Shown here in pieces: positions 8,356-15,083 of a stretch of DNA of 45,069 bases (the first letter of the stretch is position 1; each line of letters begins with the position of its first letter). The DNA is from Candidatus Kuenenia stuttgartensis (GTDB taxonomy: Bacteria > Planctomycetota > Planctomycetia > Planctomycetales > Planctomycetaceae). Under the pieces are notes generated by a model. That model was not told where the DNA came from, did not search any database, and saw only the letters and a program-made list of their open reading frames with translations. Location: the NCBI GenBank assembly GCA_945861465.1, contig CAMAVB010000033.1, positions 1-45,069 on the forward strand, in the 5' to 3' direction. The position numbers and the translations under genes are program-made.

Positions 8356-9672
8356 ATGAAACGATCCGCTTCGATTCTCATGTGTCTGCTGGCAGCGACA
8401 GCAGGGTTTTATGCAGCCCAGCCAGGACTCAACGCGGTCGAAGACAAGACTGCGATCGACAGAACGCGGGAGGATTTTGAACTCATGCGGCTCTTCGCTG
8501 AAGCTTACGAACAGATCGACCTGAGTTATGTCAACGACGTCGATCGGCGCGATCTGGTGGAGGCGGCGATTCAGGGAATGGCAACACATCTGGATCCCTG
8601 GTCCAGCTACATCGCTCCGCGAAATGTGCGTCAGTTCGATCGTTACATCGATCAGGAATTTGGCGGCGTCGGGATTCATGTCAATGCTTCAGGCAGCAAA
8701 CTGGAAATCATCAGTGTCCTCCCCGGTTCGCCCGCCTTCCGCGCAGGATTGAAAGCCGGAGATGAAATTGTTGAAGTCGATGGCAAGTCCACGAAAGGAC
8801 TGACTCATGCCGCACTGACGGAACAAATGACAGGTCCGTCCGGCCGCCCGGTGGAACTCGGAATTGTGCGGGCCGATTCCACGACAACAGAACAGGTTAA
8901 GGTGGTGCGTGAGATCATTCAGATCCCGACGATTGTGGGGCATCAACGAAACGCCGATCAGACGTGGAATTATCTCCTCGATAATGTCCACAGGACGGGC
9001 TACCTGCGAATCACCCATTTCGCGAAAAATACACCGGATGATCTGCGGCAAACGATGGATGCTCTGATTGAAGCCGATGTCAAAGGAATTGTGCTGGACC
9101 TGCGTTCCAATCCTGGCGGCTTGCTGACGGCTGCGATTGAGATTGCAGATATGTTTTTGGAATCGGGCACAATCGTCAGCGTCAAAGGACGCACAGTTCC
9201 TGAACGAACATGGAAGGCGAAGCAGGGCATGACATTCCCGGACATCCCGATTGCCGTGCTTGTGAATCGTTACAGTGCTTCGGCCAGCGAAGTTCTGAGT
9301 GCCGCCTTGCAGGACAACAACCGGGCCACCGTTGTCGGAGAGCGTACGTTTGGAAAGGGAAGTGTCCAGACTGTGCTGCGGCTGGAGTCCGGCAAAAGCC
9401 TGCTCAAGCTGACAACGGCAAGTTACTATCGTCCCAGCGGTTTGAATATCCACCGTACCGACGACCTGAAGCCCGAAGACGACTGGGGTGTGAAACCATC
9501 CGAAGGGCATGAACACCGGATGTCGCACGACGAATGGCAGAAGTGGCTGACTGCCCGCGATGCCATCGATTACGAACGCCCAATTCCCGATGTGGCATTC
9601 GAAGATCCGCATCTTGCAGATGCCACAGCATGGCTGACAAACGAAATCACGACGAGAGAGACGCCGAAATGA
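8356..9672 (+). CDS. S41 family C-terminal processing peptidase (CtpA/Prc-like)
   Basis: 438 aa. The ATG at 8356 was chosen because a signal peptide follows directly (hydrophobic SILMCLLAATAGFYAA). A PDZ domain follows (FGGVGIHV to about residue 190, with PGSPAFRAGLKAGDEI). The catalytic region has GIVLDLRSNPGGLLTAA, the serine motif NRYSASASEVLSAAL near residue 305, and the lysine in GERTFGKGSVQ, giving the Ser-Lys dyad. It acts in the periplasm or on the cytoplasmic membrane, trimming or degrading envelope proteins. The C-terminal 70 residues after the catalytic core are polar. The membrane-protein gene at 9719 follows after 46 bp and may be co-transcribed. Confidence 0.9.
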   Translation: MKRSASILMCLLAATAGFYAAQPGLNAVEDKTAIDRTREDFELMRLFAEAYEQIDLSYVNDVDRRDLVEAAIQGMATHLDPWSSYIAPRNVRQFDRYIDQEFGGVGIHVNASGSKLEIISVLPGSPAFRAGLKAGDEIVEVDGKSTKGLTHAALTEQMTGPSGRPVELGIVRADSTTTEQVKVVREIIQIPTIVGHQRNADQTWNYLLDNVHRTGYLRITHFAKNTPDDLRQTMDALIEADVKGIVLDLRSNPGGLLTAAIEIADMFLESGTIVSVKGRTVPERTWKAKQGMTFPDIPIAVLVNRYSASASEVLSAALQDNNRATVVGERTFGKGSVQTVLRLESGKSLLKLTTASYYRPSGLNIHRTDDLKPEDDWGVKPSEGHEHRMSHDEWQKWLTARDAIDYERPIPDVAFEDPHLADATAWLTNEITTRETPK

Positions 9673-9718
9673 CCAGGACATTCAGACCCGCACGAAATGG
9701 CAAAAGGGAATTGATCTG

Positions 9719-10501
9719 ATGTATCGAAAGCTCGACCCGCAAAAAACCATTTCGACACTGGCGACGCTGGCCAAACGTATCGACGAGCGCTTTCCTGGGG
9801 CCAGCCTGAACGGCGTCTGTAAAGAGGTGGCGGCAATTGCCGTTGAAACGTGCGGACGGATCGCCTGGGTTTCAAAGCCGTACAAGGCGATTCGGTTTGC
9901 TGTGATTCTGGTGATTGCCGTCGCCGGATGTCTGGGCTGGCTGCTGATTCGAAAAGTACACATCCGGGCTGAGGGTTTCAGTATCGAGGAACTGGAGGCT
10001 GGAACAAATGGTATCGTCCTGACCGGTGCCGCTCTGTTCTTCCTGTTCTCACTGGAATCCCGGATGAAGCGTGTCAGGATTCTGCAGGGGATTGAAGAAT
10101 TGCGAGCGGTGTCACACGTCATTGATATGCACCAGCTCACGAAAGATCCCAGCCACATGCTGTCCGCCGGTGGCCAACGCACGAAGTCGTCTCCCCAACG
10201 GACCCTGACGCCATTTCAATTGGCACGATATCTGGACTACTGCAGTGAGCTGTTATCGCTCATCGGCAAGCTCGCCGCCTTGTACGCTCAAAGCACGTCG
10301 GACAGTGTTGTGCTGCAGGCCGTGAACGATATCGAGACTCTCACGAACGGCATCAGTCGCAAGATCTGGCAGAAGATCATGATTTTGGACGACGACATTG
10401 CAGAAGACGCCGCAAAGGAAGCGCAACCGAAAGTAACGTCGCGTGCAGATCAGCCCGCGCCGACTACTCTCGTCCCCGTCGTGCCGCCAACAACTGATTG
10501 A
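9719..10501 (+). CDS. Unrecognised two-helix membrane protein
   Basis: 260 aa; AAGGGAA lies about 10 bases before the ATG. I do not recognise a family. An N-terminal cytosolic helix-rich part (1-58) is followed by two hydrophobic segments at about 59-77 and 98-113. A soluble region of about 145 residues with predicted helices comes next (YCSELLSLIGKLAALYAQ), then a Pro/Ala-rich tail. The short spacing to the processing-protease gene suggests shared transcription and perhaps a partnership at the membrane; this is inference only. Confidence 0.6.
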   Translation: MYRKLDPQKTISTLATLAKRIDERFPGASLNGVCKEVAAIAVETCGRIAWVSKPYKAIRFAVILVIAVAGCLGWLLIRKVHIRAEGFSIEELEAGTNGIVLTGAALFFLFSLESRMKRVRILQGIEELRAVSHVIDMHQLTKDPSHMLSAGGQRTKSSPQRTLTPFQLARYLDYCSELLSLIGKLAALYAQSTSDSVVLQAVNDIETLTNGISRKIWQKIMILDDDIAEDAAKEAQPKVTSRADQPAPTTLVPVVPPTTD

Positions 10502-12810: not shown

Positions 12811-13214
12811 CAACCTGCAAGCCCTGAATCTTTGATTCTTATCGCCTTTCCGCTGCAAGGTATCGCCAATTGACACCTTTCCACAATCAACGCGGTACAA
12901 GCATCCCGCTGAAAGGGAAAATGCCTGCCGACTGGAAACGATGGTCCTTACACGTCGGACGTATCGGTTGTTTGGAAATGCCGATGAAGTCACCAAGGCC
13001 TCGCGAAAGTAGAGCGAATTGGTGGAGCAGCATATAGCCTTAGAACCACGCAACGATTGCGCTATTCATTGCGCGATACTACCTCGCAATTGGATTAGTC
13101 CTTCTTTCGCGCACCGATTGCGCGATTTGTTGCGCGATTCGGCCATCGGTCGACTTTCCCAACTCTTTCGCGCAACGATTGCGATTTGAAATGCGAGATT
13201 CGGAAATTGAGACG
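12811..13214. other. Intergenic region; promoter-distal part holds the 61-bp periodic array
   Basis: This gap lies between the deaminase-ATPase gene and the ABC ATPase gene, both on the minus strand. 12811-13040 shows nothing I can define, although it should contain the promoter of the ABC pair. 13046-13203 holds the array described separately. Confidence 0.5.
13046..13203. repeat. Three palindromic cores at exact 61-bp spacing
   Basis: The core CGCAACGATTGCG (arms CGCAA/TTGCG around three bases) lies at 13049-13061 and 13171-13183, with the variant CGCACCGATTGCG at 13110-13122, giving start-to-start distances of 61 and 61. Similarity spreads over about 37 bp per unit, including a second TTGCGCGATT-like block, and the remaining 24 bp differ between units. 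No fourth core is found one period to either side. The array begins 12 bp downstream of the stop codon of the deaminase-ATPase gene. 61 is not a multiple of three, so it is not a protein repeat. It may be a set of binding sites for a dimeric protein. Confidence 0.7.
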
Positions 13215-14702
13215 CTACTTTGCGCGGTGTTTAGTCGCCCTCCCTTTGCCCTGACGTTCAACAATCCCCAAGTCAAAAAACTCCTTCAGATGTAATCCTG
13301 CAGCCCTCTGCTCCAACTTCTGCGATTCGGCGTAGTCAGGTCTCGTCACCCAACCTTGAGTCTTCATCCATGCGTATCCAGCAACTTCCGCAGGGTTCAA
13401 TTCCTTTAACACTTCAGGCGGCAAGCTCTTCTCAACTGCATCAGTTGACCGGTACAGCCGGAGCACCAGATACGGCTCCTCCCAAGAAAATTCTGGTCGG
13501 GGCAGCCCTGCTTTTTCCGCCGCCAGCTTCATCGACTTTAGCCCCAGCCCACGTTCTTCTGCCAGCCGCATGCGACTGAAGATGTAGTGCAGCGTCGGGT
13601 TCCGACTGCGCATCGGCGCGTTCAGAGACTGCAATTGCTCGATTGTGATCGGCTCGACCGGTGCACCAGGGCTTTTTATCGTCAGCGAATCAGCCGTCGC
13701 AGAAACCTGTATCTTCGCGCCGGAAACCGAATAGTCACGGTGAACGATCGCATTTACGATACCCTCGCGAACAAGCTTAAAGAACTCCGCGTCGCGGTCG
13801 ACCCTCTTGGCTTCGACCCGATCGTCTGGCTTGGGGAGTTTGTCCCGTAGCCACTTTAGAATCTGCTCTGGCACAAGCACTTGAGGTCCATCGAAATTTT
13901 TCGACTCGTCGGATCCGTTTTCATAGTGGATCGCGCCCAACACACCCGAATCAACCAGCGCTTCTCTTGGATGCATACCGAAGAGAATGATCCCATTGTT
14001 GGTCGGCTCGCCCGACTTATCCATGACTACCAACTGTTGCAACCGCTGGCGAAACTCATCCGAGTCAACTGGCTCGGCGATTCCGGCGACTTCGCGAAAC
14101 TGCGACAATGCTTTCTGCGAAAACGCTGATCGATCGAAGTGATCAGCCTTCGATTGCAGCAATGTTGGCGGCAAATACAGTTCGTCATTCTCGGCTTCTT
14201 TCTTGCGTTCATTGGCGTTCTCAATGAACTTCGCGTTCACTCGCTCAATCTCCTCCTGAAACTCGCGATCAAAAGGATTGACTCTGACACCGCGACTCTC
14301 AAGGTAGCGAATGCCCTCACCGTCAACCGACTTGTCCGGATCCTGGATGCCGACGTAAACGGTTTTGATGCGAGCAAGAATGATGCGACGGGCGCAGCAT
14401 ATCTTTGGCGGATTCCGTTCCATGCACGGTTCAAGCGTCGTGAACAGAATGCAATTGTCCAACTTTCGACCGGCCAGTTTCCGTTCCAGCAACGTATATT
14501 CCCCATGGTCGCCATCACGCAGCTCGCCACGATAGGCGGTTTCGTAGCGTTTCTCATCAGGGAACCAGATCACGGCACCGACCGCAGGCGGAACTTTCGC
14601 ATCGCCGCGATCTTCGGGAATCGACTCTTTCATCACTTCAACAGCGATCTCCATCAGCTTGCGAGCGTCGAAGGCTTTCAGCGTGTTTGATTCTGTCGCC
14701 AT
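13215..14702 (-). CDS. Zinc deaminase domain fused to RecG-C/GHKL-like ATPase domain
   Basis: 495 aa from the ATG at 14702, preceded by GGAGGT; a longer frame to 14786 exists. Residues about 8-140 resemble RibD/dCMP-type deaminases: PPAVGAVIWF, the zinc/proton-shuttle motif HGE (in GDHGEYTLLE), LEPCMERNPPKICCARRII with two candidate zinc cysteines, and VYVGIQDPD...GEGIRYLESRGVRV. A charged helical linker follows. Residues about 300-445 match the HATPase_c_4 / RecG C-terminal-like domain: REGIVNAIVHRDYSVSGAKI, LTIKSPG, RNPTLHYIF and EERGLGLKSM. The usual AlbA_2 N-domain of such proteins appears to be replaced by the deaminase. A winged-helix-like tail ends the protein. The biological role is unknown; nucleotide sensing, nucleic acid editing or defence are possibilities. 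It is not riboflavin synthesis RibD, since the reductase domain is absent. Confidence 0.75.
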   Translation of the reverse strand: MATESNTLKAFDARKLMEIAVEVMKESIPEDRGDAKVPPAVGAVIWFPDEKRYETAYRGELRDGDHGEYTLLERKLAGRKLDNCILFTTLEPCMERNPPKICCARRIILARIKTVYVGIQDPDKSVDGEGIRYLESRGVRVNPFDREFQEEIERVNAKFIENANERKKEAENDELYLPPTLLQSKADHFDRSAFSQKALSQFREVAGIAEPVDSDEFRQRLQQLVVMDKSGEPTNNGIILFGMHPREALVDSGVLGAIHYENGSDESKNFDGPQVLVPEQILKWLRDKLPKPDDRVEAKRVDRDAEFFKLVREGIVNAIVHRDYSVSGAKIQVSATADSLTIKSPGAPVEPITIEQLQSLNAPMRSRNPTLHYIFSRMRLAEERGLGLKSMKLAAEKAGLPRPEFSWEEPYLVLRLYRSTDAVEKSLPPEVLKELNPAEVAGYAWMKTQGWVTRPDYAESQKLEQRAAGLHLKEFFDLGIVERQGKGRATKHRAK

Positions 14703-14704
14703 AT

Positions 14705-14944
14705 CTACCTCCGTTGGTTGTCCCGACCGCGAGCTCTCCAGAGATGAGATTGGGAACGAGCGTATCCCGGAAGTTTGAGAGGACACGCGACTCCTTCGCG
14801 GCAGTATCCATTTGTCAGTTCAAATGCAAAATCATAAATCTCTCCATTCTGCAGGATTGCATTGTCGTAAAGCGTTTTCATCGCCCCGAGATACGTCTCC
14901 ATATCATATTTTCTGGATTTCTTGATGTCGCTTTGAACCGTCAT
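14705..14944 (-). CDS. Small ORF coupled to the deaminase-ATPase gene
   Basis: 79 aa, not recognised. Its TAG stop lies 2 bases before the ATG of the deaminase-ATPase gene, and that gene's GGAGGT site overlaps the last codons, so translation could be coupled. Residues 10-50 look protein-like (YLGAMKTLYDNAILQNGEIY), while the last 20 residues are basic and less convincing. No clear ribosome-binding site precedes its ATG. It may be a regulator or partner, or a remnant of a longer gene. Confidence 0.4.
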   Translation of the reverse strand: MTVQSDIKKSRKYDMETYLGAMKTLYDNAILQNGEIYDFAFELTNGYCREGVACPLKLPGYARSQSHLWRARGRDNQRR

Positions 14945-15083
14945 TTGTAATGTGTACTGAGTTTCAAGGATTGAGCGGATTCGTTGGGCAATTCAGTCTT
15001 AGTAAGATCCGGCGCGAGGGAGTGTACACTCGAAGTCAGAGCCGAACAAAGCAACTTTGCGTGCTGCTTTCACTTGTATTCTC

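Follow-up and report, generated by a model that had tools for sequence, protein, structure and literature searches.

Bacterial Schlafen-type proteins have the architecture SLFN_AlbA_2-HATPase_c_4-wHTH, ending in a winged helix, and DIP2311 (3lmm) is a solved example. According to excerpts of PMC6299218, a SIR2 domain fused with a Schlafen domain (og_40) is encoded beside prokaryotic Argonautes (pAgos). Excerpts of PMC12707154 describe PrrC as embedded in a type I restriction-modification (R-M) locus, where it guards against restriction inhibitors and fires upon restriction inhibition. RADAR (RdrB) and a CARF-fused adenosine deaminase, as partial accounts have it, use a deaminase as defence effector under the control of ATPase or sensor domains. 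CapK, an HTH-STAS-GHKL kinase, is portrayed in extracts of PMC13373217 as controlling immune operons, some of which adjoin R-M operons. Here we analyse a gene of Candidatus Kuenenia stuttgartensis that lies on a 45,069-nucleotide (nt) contig (CAMAVB010000033.1; the window) and joins a RibD-type zinc deaminase to the ATPase module and winged-helix-like tail of a Schlafen-type protein. On balance, we favour the view that this fusion is a deaminase-swapped Schlafen-type accessory protein of defence loci, most likely a conditional back-up effector. As such, it probably represents a deaminase branch of anti-phage defence that has received little notice.

A deaminase in place of the Schlafen AlbA_2 domain

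The fusion is encoded by one unbroken open reading frame (ORF) on the minus strand, from an ATG at 14702 to a stop at 13215. An alternative GTG start would lengthen the frame to 14786; the ATG was taken as the start because most homologues start close to there. The original prediction, which gave no strand, had proposed a zinc deaminase and an HATPase_c_4-like domain in one frame, with the deaminase standing in for AlbA_2, and all of these elements were borne out. The features of the gene are:

13215..14702, minus strand: fusion gene, deaminase, ATPase module and winged-helix-like tail, 495 amino acids (aa) (ORF, Pfam, model)
14202..14675, minus strand: RibD-type deaminase domain, residues ~10-167
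14499..14507, minus strand: HGE motif, residues 66-68, with H66 as presumed zinc ligand and E68 as presumed catalytic residue (alignment)
14394..14429, minus strand: PC...C motif, P92-C93...C103, with C93 and C103 as presumed zinc ligands (alignment)
13440..14177, minus strand: residues 176-421, the module found after AlbA_2 in Schlafen-type proteins
13731..13766, minus strand: N-box, E313-x3-N317-x3-H321-R322-D-Y324 (alignment)
13470..13721, minus strand: HATPase_c_4 core, residues 328-411 (Pfam PF13749)
13218..13418, minus strand: C-terminal winged-helix-like segment, residues 429-495 (structure model)

Two Pfam deaminase families match above their cut-offs, Inv-AAD (50.6 bits vs 26.5, residues 72-155) and dCMP_cyt_deam_1 (40.2 bits vs 25, residues 14-118). 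HATPase_c_4 scores 69.3 bits against a cut-off of 26. Among solved structures, the fold of the N-terminal half is closest to RibD, and the NCBIfam RibD profile matches at 49.4 bits (E 3.7e-13), far below its whole-protein cut-off of 156.35. The reductase domain of RibD has no Pfam match in the fusion protein, and the ATPase module takes its position. There was likewise no Pfam match to a STAS domain, nor to SLFN_AlbA_2 up to E 1, the region that the latter usually fills being the deaminase.

From residue 176, the model of the fusion protein tracks the fold that comes after AlbA_2 in DIP2311, including a DIP2311-like stretch that links the N-terminal domain to the ATPase core. The C-terminal segment is modelled as three helices followed by two strands (H-H-H-E-E). 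No profile reaches its curated cut-off there, and the sole Pfam match, DUF7314 (E 0.12), falls below that family's cut-off. No PADLOC model covers the protein over its full length. The PADLOC model Aga_SIR2-PNTD1-PNTD2, which we infer to be og_40, matches residues 139-366 (E 4e-12), and this suggests the same tail as in SIR2-Schlafen proteins under another effector. Another N-terminal swap was seen in L073 (9326-11218), where DUF4062 lies ahead of HATPase_c_4 in the usual place of AlbA_2.

The fusion and its active-site residues are conserved

Queried with this protein alone, genome_contigs and viral_contigs gave no match, and an alignment-based scan was required. In genome_contigs that scan found 387 relatives, the best 80 of which were retained. 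Both halves are present in 53 of these 80 loci (L017-L069), on separate contigs with 14 phylum labels, which come from submitters' titles, mostly of metagenome bins; L029, titled Klebsiella pneumoniae, may be a binning error. Among the 53, five run off the end of a contig (L034, L043, L059, L061, L064) and two are split into frames (L065, L066). A further 25 loci (L072-L096) match through the ATPase half. L070 and L071 were left out of the 53, the former being interrupted between the halves and the latter stopping at a contig end. In L070 (9986-12754, Pedobacter), two minus-strand ORFs, by eye an IS3-type transposase pair, split the halves.

We aligned the window copy with the 46 complete loci (47 rows). 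The motifs that the original prediction had picked out, HGE, PC...C, NAIVHRDYS and EERGLGLKS, are present at residues 66, 92, 317 and 382, respectively. H66, E68, C93, C103 and R58 are invariant in all 47 rows, and HGE of the window copy reads HAE in 45 of them. We take the zinc-ligand and catalytic roles of H66, E68, C93 and C103 from the deaminase superfamily and, with these residues intact, argue for an active deaminase. The Asn of the RibD NPxVG motif is replaced by Ser in 30/47 rows and kept in 4/47, and this loss suggests that the substrate differs from that of RibD.

The ATPase module has its own invariant set, E313, N317, H321, R322, Y324, S344, G346, E382 and G387 (47/47). E313 and N317 correspond to the N-box Glu and Asn of GHKL ATPases and, the N-box being intact, the module likely binds nucleotide. 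The usual G1 box of GHKL proteins is D-x-G-x-G. Here, the position that we judge equivalent reads S-P-G (344-346) rather than D-x-G in 46/47 rows.

Homologues often adjoin defence genes

The original prediction also ventured a defence role, to be checked by a survey of fused homologues and their neighbours. The survey lends this guess support, as homologues adjoin type I and type III R-M, DUF1156, GmrSD and pAgo genes, and do so above a background of more distant genes from the same loci. A locus was labelled if an R-M-type, RloC-like or pAgo gene lay within three genes and 5 kb on the same strand, labels that were chosen partly from these same loci. Such a gene is found in 21/53 loci, a floor since neighbours were scanned in part, and in six loci type I R-M genes stand on both sides of the fusion.

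As a near set we took the 77 closest neighbours that share the strand of the fusion, lie no more than 1.2 kb from it and encode 140 aa or more. The distant set was 77 genes picked at random on either strand beyond 6 kb, and held 25,409 residues vs 35,942 in the near set. PADLOC matched 392 models in the near set, with type I specificity models matching up to 7 times, REase_I 5 and mad5 5, and 89 models in the distant set, none of them more than once. In Pfam, the near set yielded Methylase_S (6), HSDR_N (5), ResIII (5) and N6_N4_Mtase (3), and GmrSD_N, Eco57I, DUF1156, Fic and Phage_integrase (2 each). With seven representatives as phmmer queries, 20/193 genes within 2.5 kb were labelled vs 2/169 beyond 6 kb (Fisher p 2e-4). 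Individual arrangements include:

L030: gene order hsdR, hsdS, fusion, hsdM
L042: gene order hsdM, hsdS, fusion, hsdR
L040 and L045: gene order hsdS, fusion, hsdR
L018: a Res-like gene overlaps the fusion by 4 nt, followed by an N6_N4 methylase
L028: DUF1156 proteins flank the fusion on both sides
L046: Piwi-domain protein directly downstream, SLFN_AlbA_2 directly upstream
L052: Piwi-domain protein directly downstream, caspase-domain protein directly upstream
L047 and L061: GmrSD neighbour
L053: CARF-family protein directly upstream (8794-9765)
L055: Fic neighbour
L136 (the same locus as L007; phylum of the window): HsdM, HsdS, fusion with N-terminal HTH_3, AlbA_2-looking protein, HsdR
L138 (phylum of the window): fusion between HsdM and HsdS
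L135 (phylum of the window): Res-like fragment beside the fusion

RloC-like AAA_13 proteins adjoin the fusion in L027 and L047. The likeness of the L136 protein to AlbA_2 was judged by eye, and it has no PADLOC match. In L137, also from the phylum of the window, none of the seven query labels was seen. L046 and L052 (0-14 kb) each have a type III-like methylase 4-8 kb upstream, making an unusual mixed defence locus with a pAgo-like gene. On a Synechococcus elongatus plasmid (L141:1587-3044), a protein annotated as 'Fic family' sits between hsdS and hsdR, the same slot as the fusion, with its match to the ATPase half beginning at about residue 139. For the proteins named 'Fic family protein' on two plasmids (H5, H7), the match begins well inside the protein.

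The fusion is widespread but rare

The distribution of the fusion is patchy. A search of the phylum at E 1e-20 or better matched 12/392 genomes, the window's own included, with nine full-length copies, two contig-end fragments and one deaminase with TPR repeats. The eight other genomes with full-length copies show 37-50% identity, and at least three of them are also among the 53 loci. Within the family, 4/120 genomes match at E 1e-40, again counting the window's own. Matches occur in 70 plasmid and 25 phage records, mostly to the ATPase half, and no record in either collection spans as much as 80% of the protein; 16 viral_contigs loci each hold one half or the other.

In a quick tree built from the alignment, 44 of the 47 rows carry a phylum label (14 groups), and these labels need 17 changes where the minimum possible is 13. 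Bacteroidota (21 rows) account for 2 changes and Planctomycetota (6 rows) for 5, of which 4 are forced by starred branches. Measured by path, the window copy is closest to rows labelled Bacillota and Verrucomicrobiota. This pattern fits horizontal transfer, without amounting to proof.

Related deaminases also occur in other company. In G369 (L014:1492-3348), one is joined to TPR repeats in a 619-aa protein of the same class, and on a viral contig (L097:4282-5313) one forms the C-terminal end of a 344-aa protein.

The window copy and its surroundings

In the window, the fusion gene sits between an ABC-transporter gene and mutS and, unlike several homologues, outside any R-M operon. Three further features surround it:

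12893..15083, no strand: block of ~2.19 kb containing the fusion gene, missing in congener G402 (flank alignment)
13042..13203, no strand: three imperfect 40-nt repeats with 61-nt spacing, directly 3' of the fusion gene
14705..14944, minus strand: 79-aa ORF directly upstream of the fusion gene, probably not a conserved gene

The flanks of the block align to G402 (L125) at 84% and 86% nt identity. They lie 74 bp apart there, so the block looks inserted here or lost there. Among eight congener stretches, both flanks are found in G402 only, and in the remaining seven the alignment is limited to the ABC-transporter side; the insertion is thus read from one relative. The left edge is soft, since the alignment to congener G405 continues to window position 12972. 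The G+C content of the block is 52.4% vs 55.6% for the window. The window genome, a 474-contig draft, also encodes RibD as a protein of its own (371 aa), and the ATPase half recurs in two further proteins.

The repeats are rich in TTGCGCGA and exactly spaced, with copies 68% and 78% identical to the reference copy. We rejected them as a dispersed element, as they have no second site in the genome at E 0.001. The 79-aa ORF was rejected as a co-encoded partner: it has no convincing counterpart in the homologue loci searched (best other E 0.20).

Discussion

How might such a fusion work? Its plan is an effector domain, a GHKL-like ATPase module and a winged helix, in which a RibD-type zinc deaminase would take over from the Schlafen AlbA_2 nuclease. 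The ATPase/winged-helix part would act as an ATP/DNA switch that holds the deaminase in check and senses failing restriction, or invading DNA or its products. Once released, the deaminase may attack the nucleotide pool or nucleic acid, a pyrimidine-type substrate being the default guess, and so halt the phage, perhaps with the loss of the cell itself. Given the precedent of PrrC-like accessory proteins, the deaminase version is by analogy most likely a conditional effector. More tentatively, and with considerable doubt, we propose a deaminase class of guard effectors tied to R-M, DUF1156, GmrSD or Argonaute systems, in which the winged-helix/ATPase sensor would free the RibD-type deaminase upon defeat of the front line, to act on nucleotides, tRNA or invading DNA.

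Several observations weigh against an effector of defence loci. ATP hydrolysis is unsure because the D-x-G of the G1 box is replaced by S-P-G. In 32/53 loci there is no labelled R-M-type or pAgo gene so near, many of their neighbours being unscanned, and the neighbours in L033 (polA), L041 (uppS), L049 (folD), L026 and L069 are ordinary ones. When the five loci that supplied queries are set aside, the phmmer enrichment weakens to 12/176 vs 2/147 (p 0.025). The window copy is itself solitary, with no other window gene labelled by the seven R-M queries in phmmer. Finally, the homologue in L136 (7794-9470) carries its N-terminal HTH_3 inside a type I R-M locus, an arrangement that fits a regulator.

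Regulation is the main rival to the effector role, although we consider it unlikely. The winged helix would bind the operon promoter, the ATPase module would be the switch, and the deaminase fold would sense or turn over a nucleotide that reports infection, thereby controlling the R-M neighbours. The winged-helix-like tail of the model, the HTH_3 domain of L136 and the precedent of CapK, as extracted in PMC13373217, all speak for this. However, the invariance of the zinc and catalytic residues in all 47 rows exceeds what a binding-only role would need, and the fusion is often an internal gene of an operon, placed between hsdS and hsdR, and not the leading one. Solitary copies occur, and neither a STAS domain nor a separate repressor was seen. 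Those solitary copies also count against a supplier enzyme, which would make or remove a modified base or nucleotide for a neighbouring methylase, nuclease or signalling protein without cell death. Methylase genes are common neighbours, and deaminases of the RibD type use a pyrimidine nucleotide intermediate as substrate. Yet the partners are so varied (type I, type III, DUF1156, GmrSD, pAgo, CARF, Fic) that no single downstream user fits, and we regard this explanation as improbable.

A metabolic role, as a RibD paralogue or as a pyrimidine deaminase with a stray domain attached, would account for the RibD-like fold of the N-terminal half and for the NCBIfam match. We give it very little weight and hold a riboflavin role to be unlikely: the genome has its own RibD, the reductase domain is absent, the score is far below the RibD cut-off, the fusion is rare in family and phylum alike, and few rows keep the NPxVG Asn. 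That two genes were joined by chance or by assembly error, the latter named in the original prediction beside the lack of a deaminase match as grounds for doubt, might be suspected in a draft genome. Deaminase profiles do match, though, and the junction is spanned in the 53 loci on separate contigs and recurs in the single-contig genome G238, which refutes an artefact and leaves this explanation next to no probability.

If the guard-effector proposal is true, the Schlafen chassis would have base deamination as a further stand-by output, next to tRNA cleavage and NAD loss. Under the effector role in general, ordinary R-M operons would keep deamination as a weapon in reserve, and an enzyme resembling RibD would act on a substrate from outside the riboflavin pathway. 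The bacterial Schlafen ATPase-winged-helix tail accepts other outputs, a deaminase here, DUF4062 in L073 and, from the PADLOC match, probably SIR2. A tail found under several output domains points to a shared sensor or switch, which is open to separate study. We found no description of the deaminase and Schlafen-tail pairing in open-licence full text, although a deaminase-fold review outside that coverage may mention the architecture.

The fusion can be set beside several known systems. It has the zinc-dependent cytidine-deaminase-like fold, with the H[A/G]E and PC...C residues present in 47/47 rows. With RibD/RibG it shares the deaminase fold, the zinc motif and a D-P-x-P-x-V-x-x-x-G stretch; it differs in having no reductase domain, in the frequent loss of the NPxVG Asn and in occurring beside a separate RibD in the genome. 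RADAR and the CARF-fused deaminase have control domains different from those of the fusion, and theirs is the adenosine deaminase fold. CapK/CapS, as far as the extracts describe them, resemble the fusion homologues in placing an HTH and a GHKL domain near immune operons, but have a STAS domain, a separate repressor and no deaminase. The PrrC and RloC anticodon nucleases are, like several fusion homologues, accessory genes in or beside type I R-M loci, yet their domains are unrelated and they cut tRNA rather than deaminate. The SIR2-Schlafen proteins of og_40 are similar through the PADLOC match, with SIR2 and not a deaminase as the effector. Finally, the bacterial Schlafen proteins exemplified by DIP2311 match the fusion in the HATPase_c_4 domain, in the intervening fold and in the linkage to defence (21/53 loci), and differ in the AlbA_2 nuclease domain, in place of which the fusion carries its deaminase.
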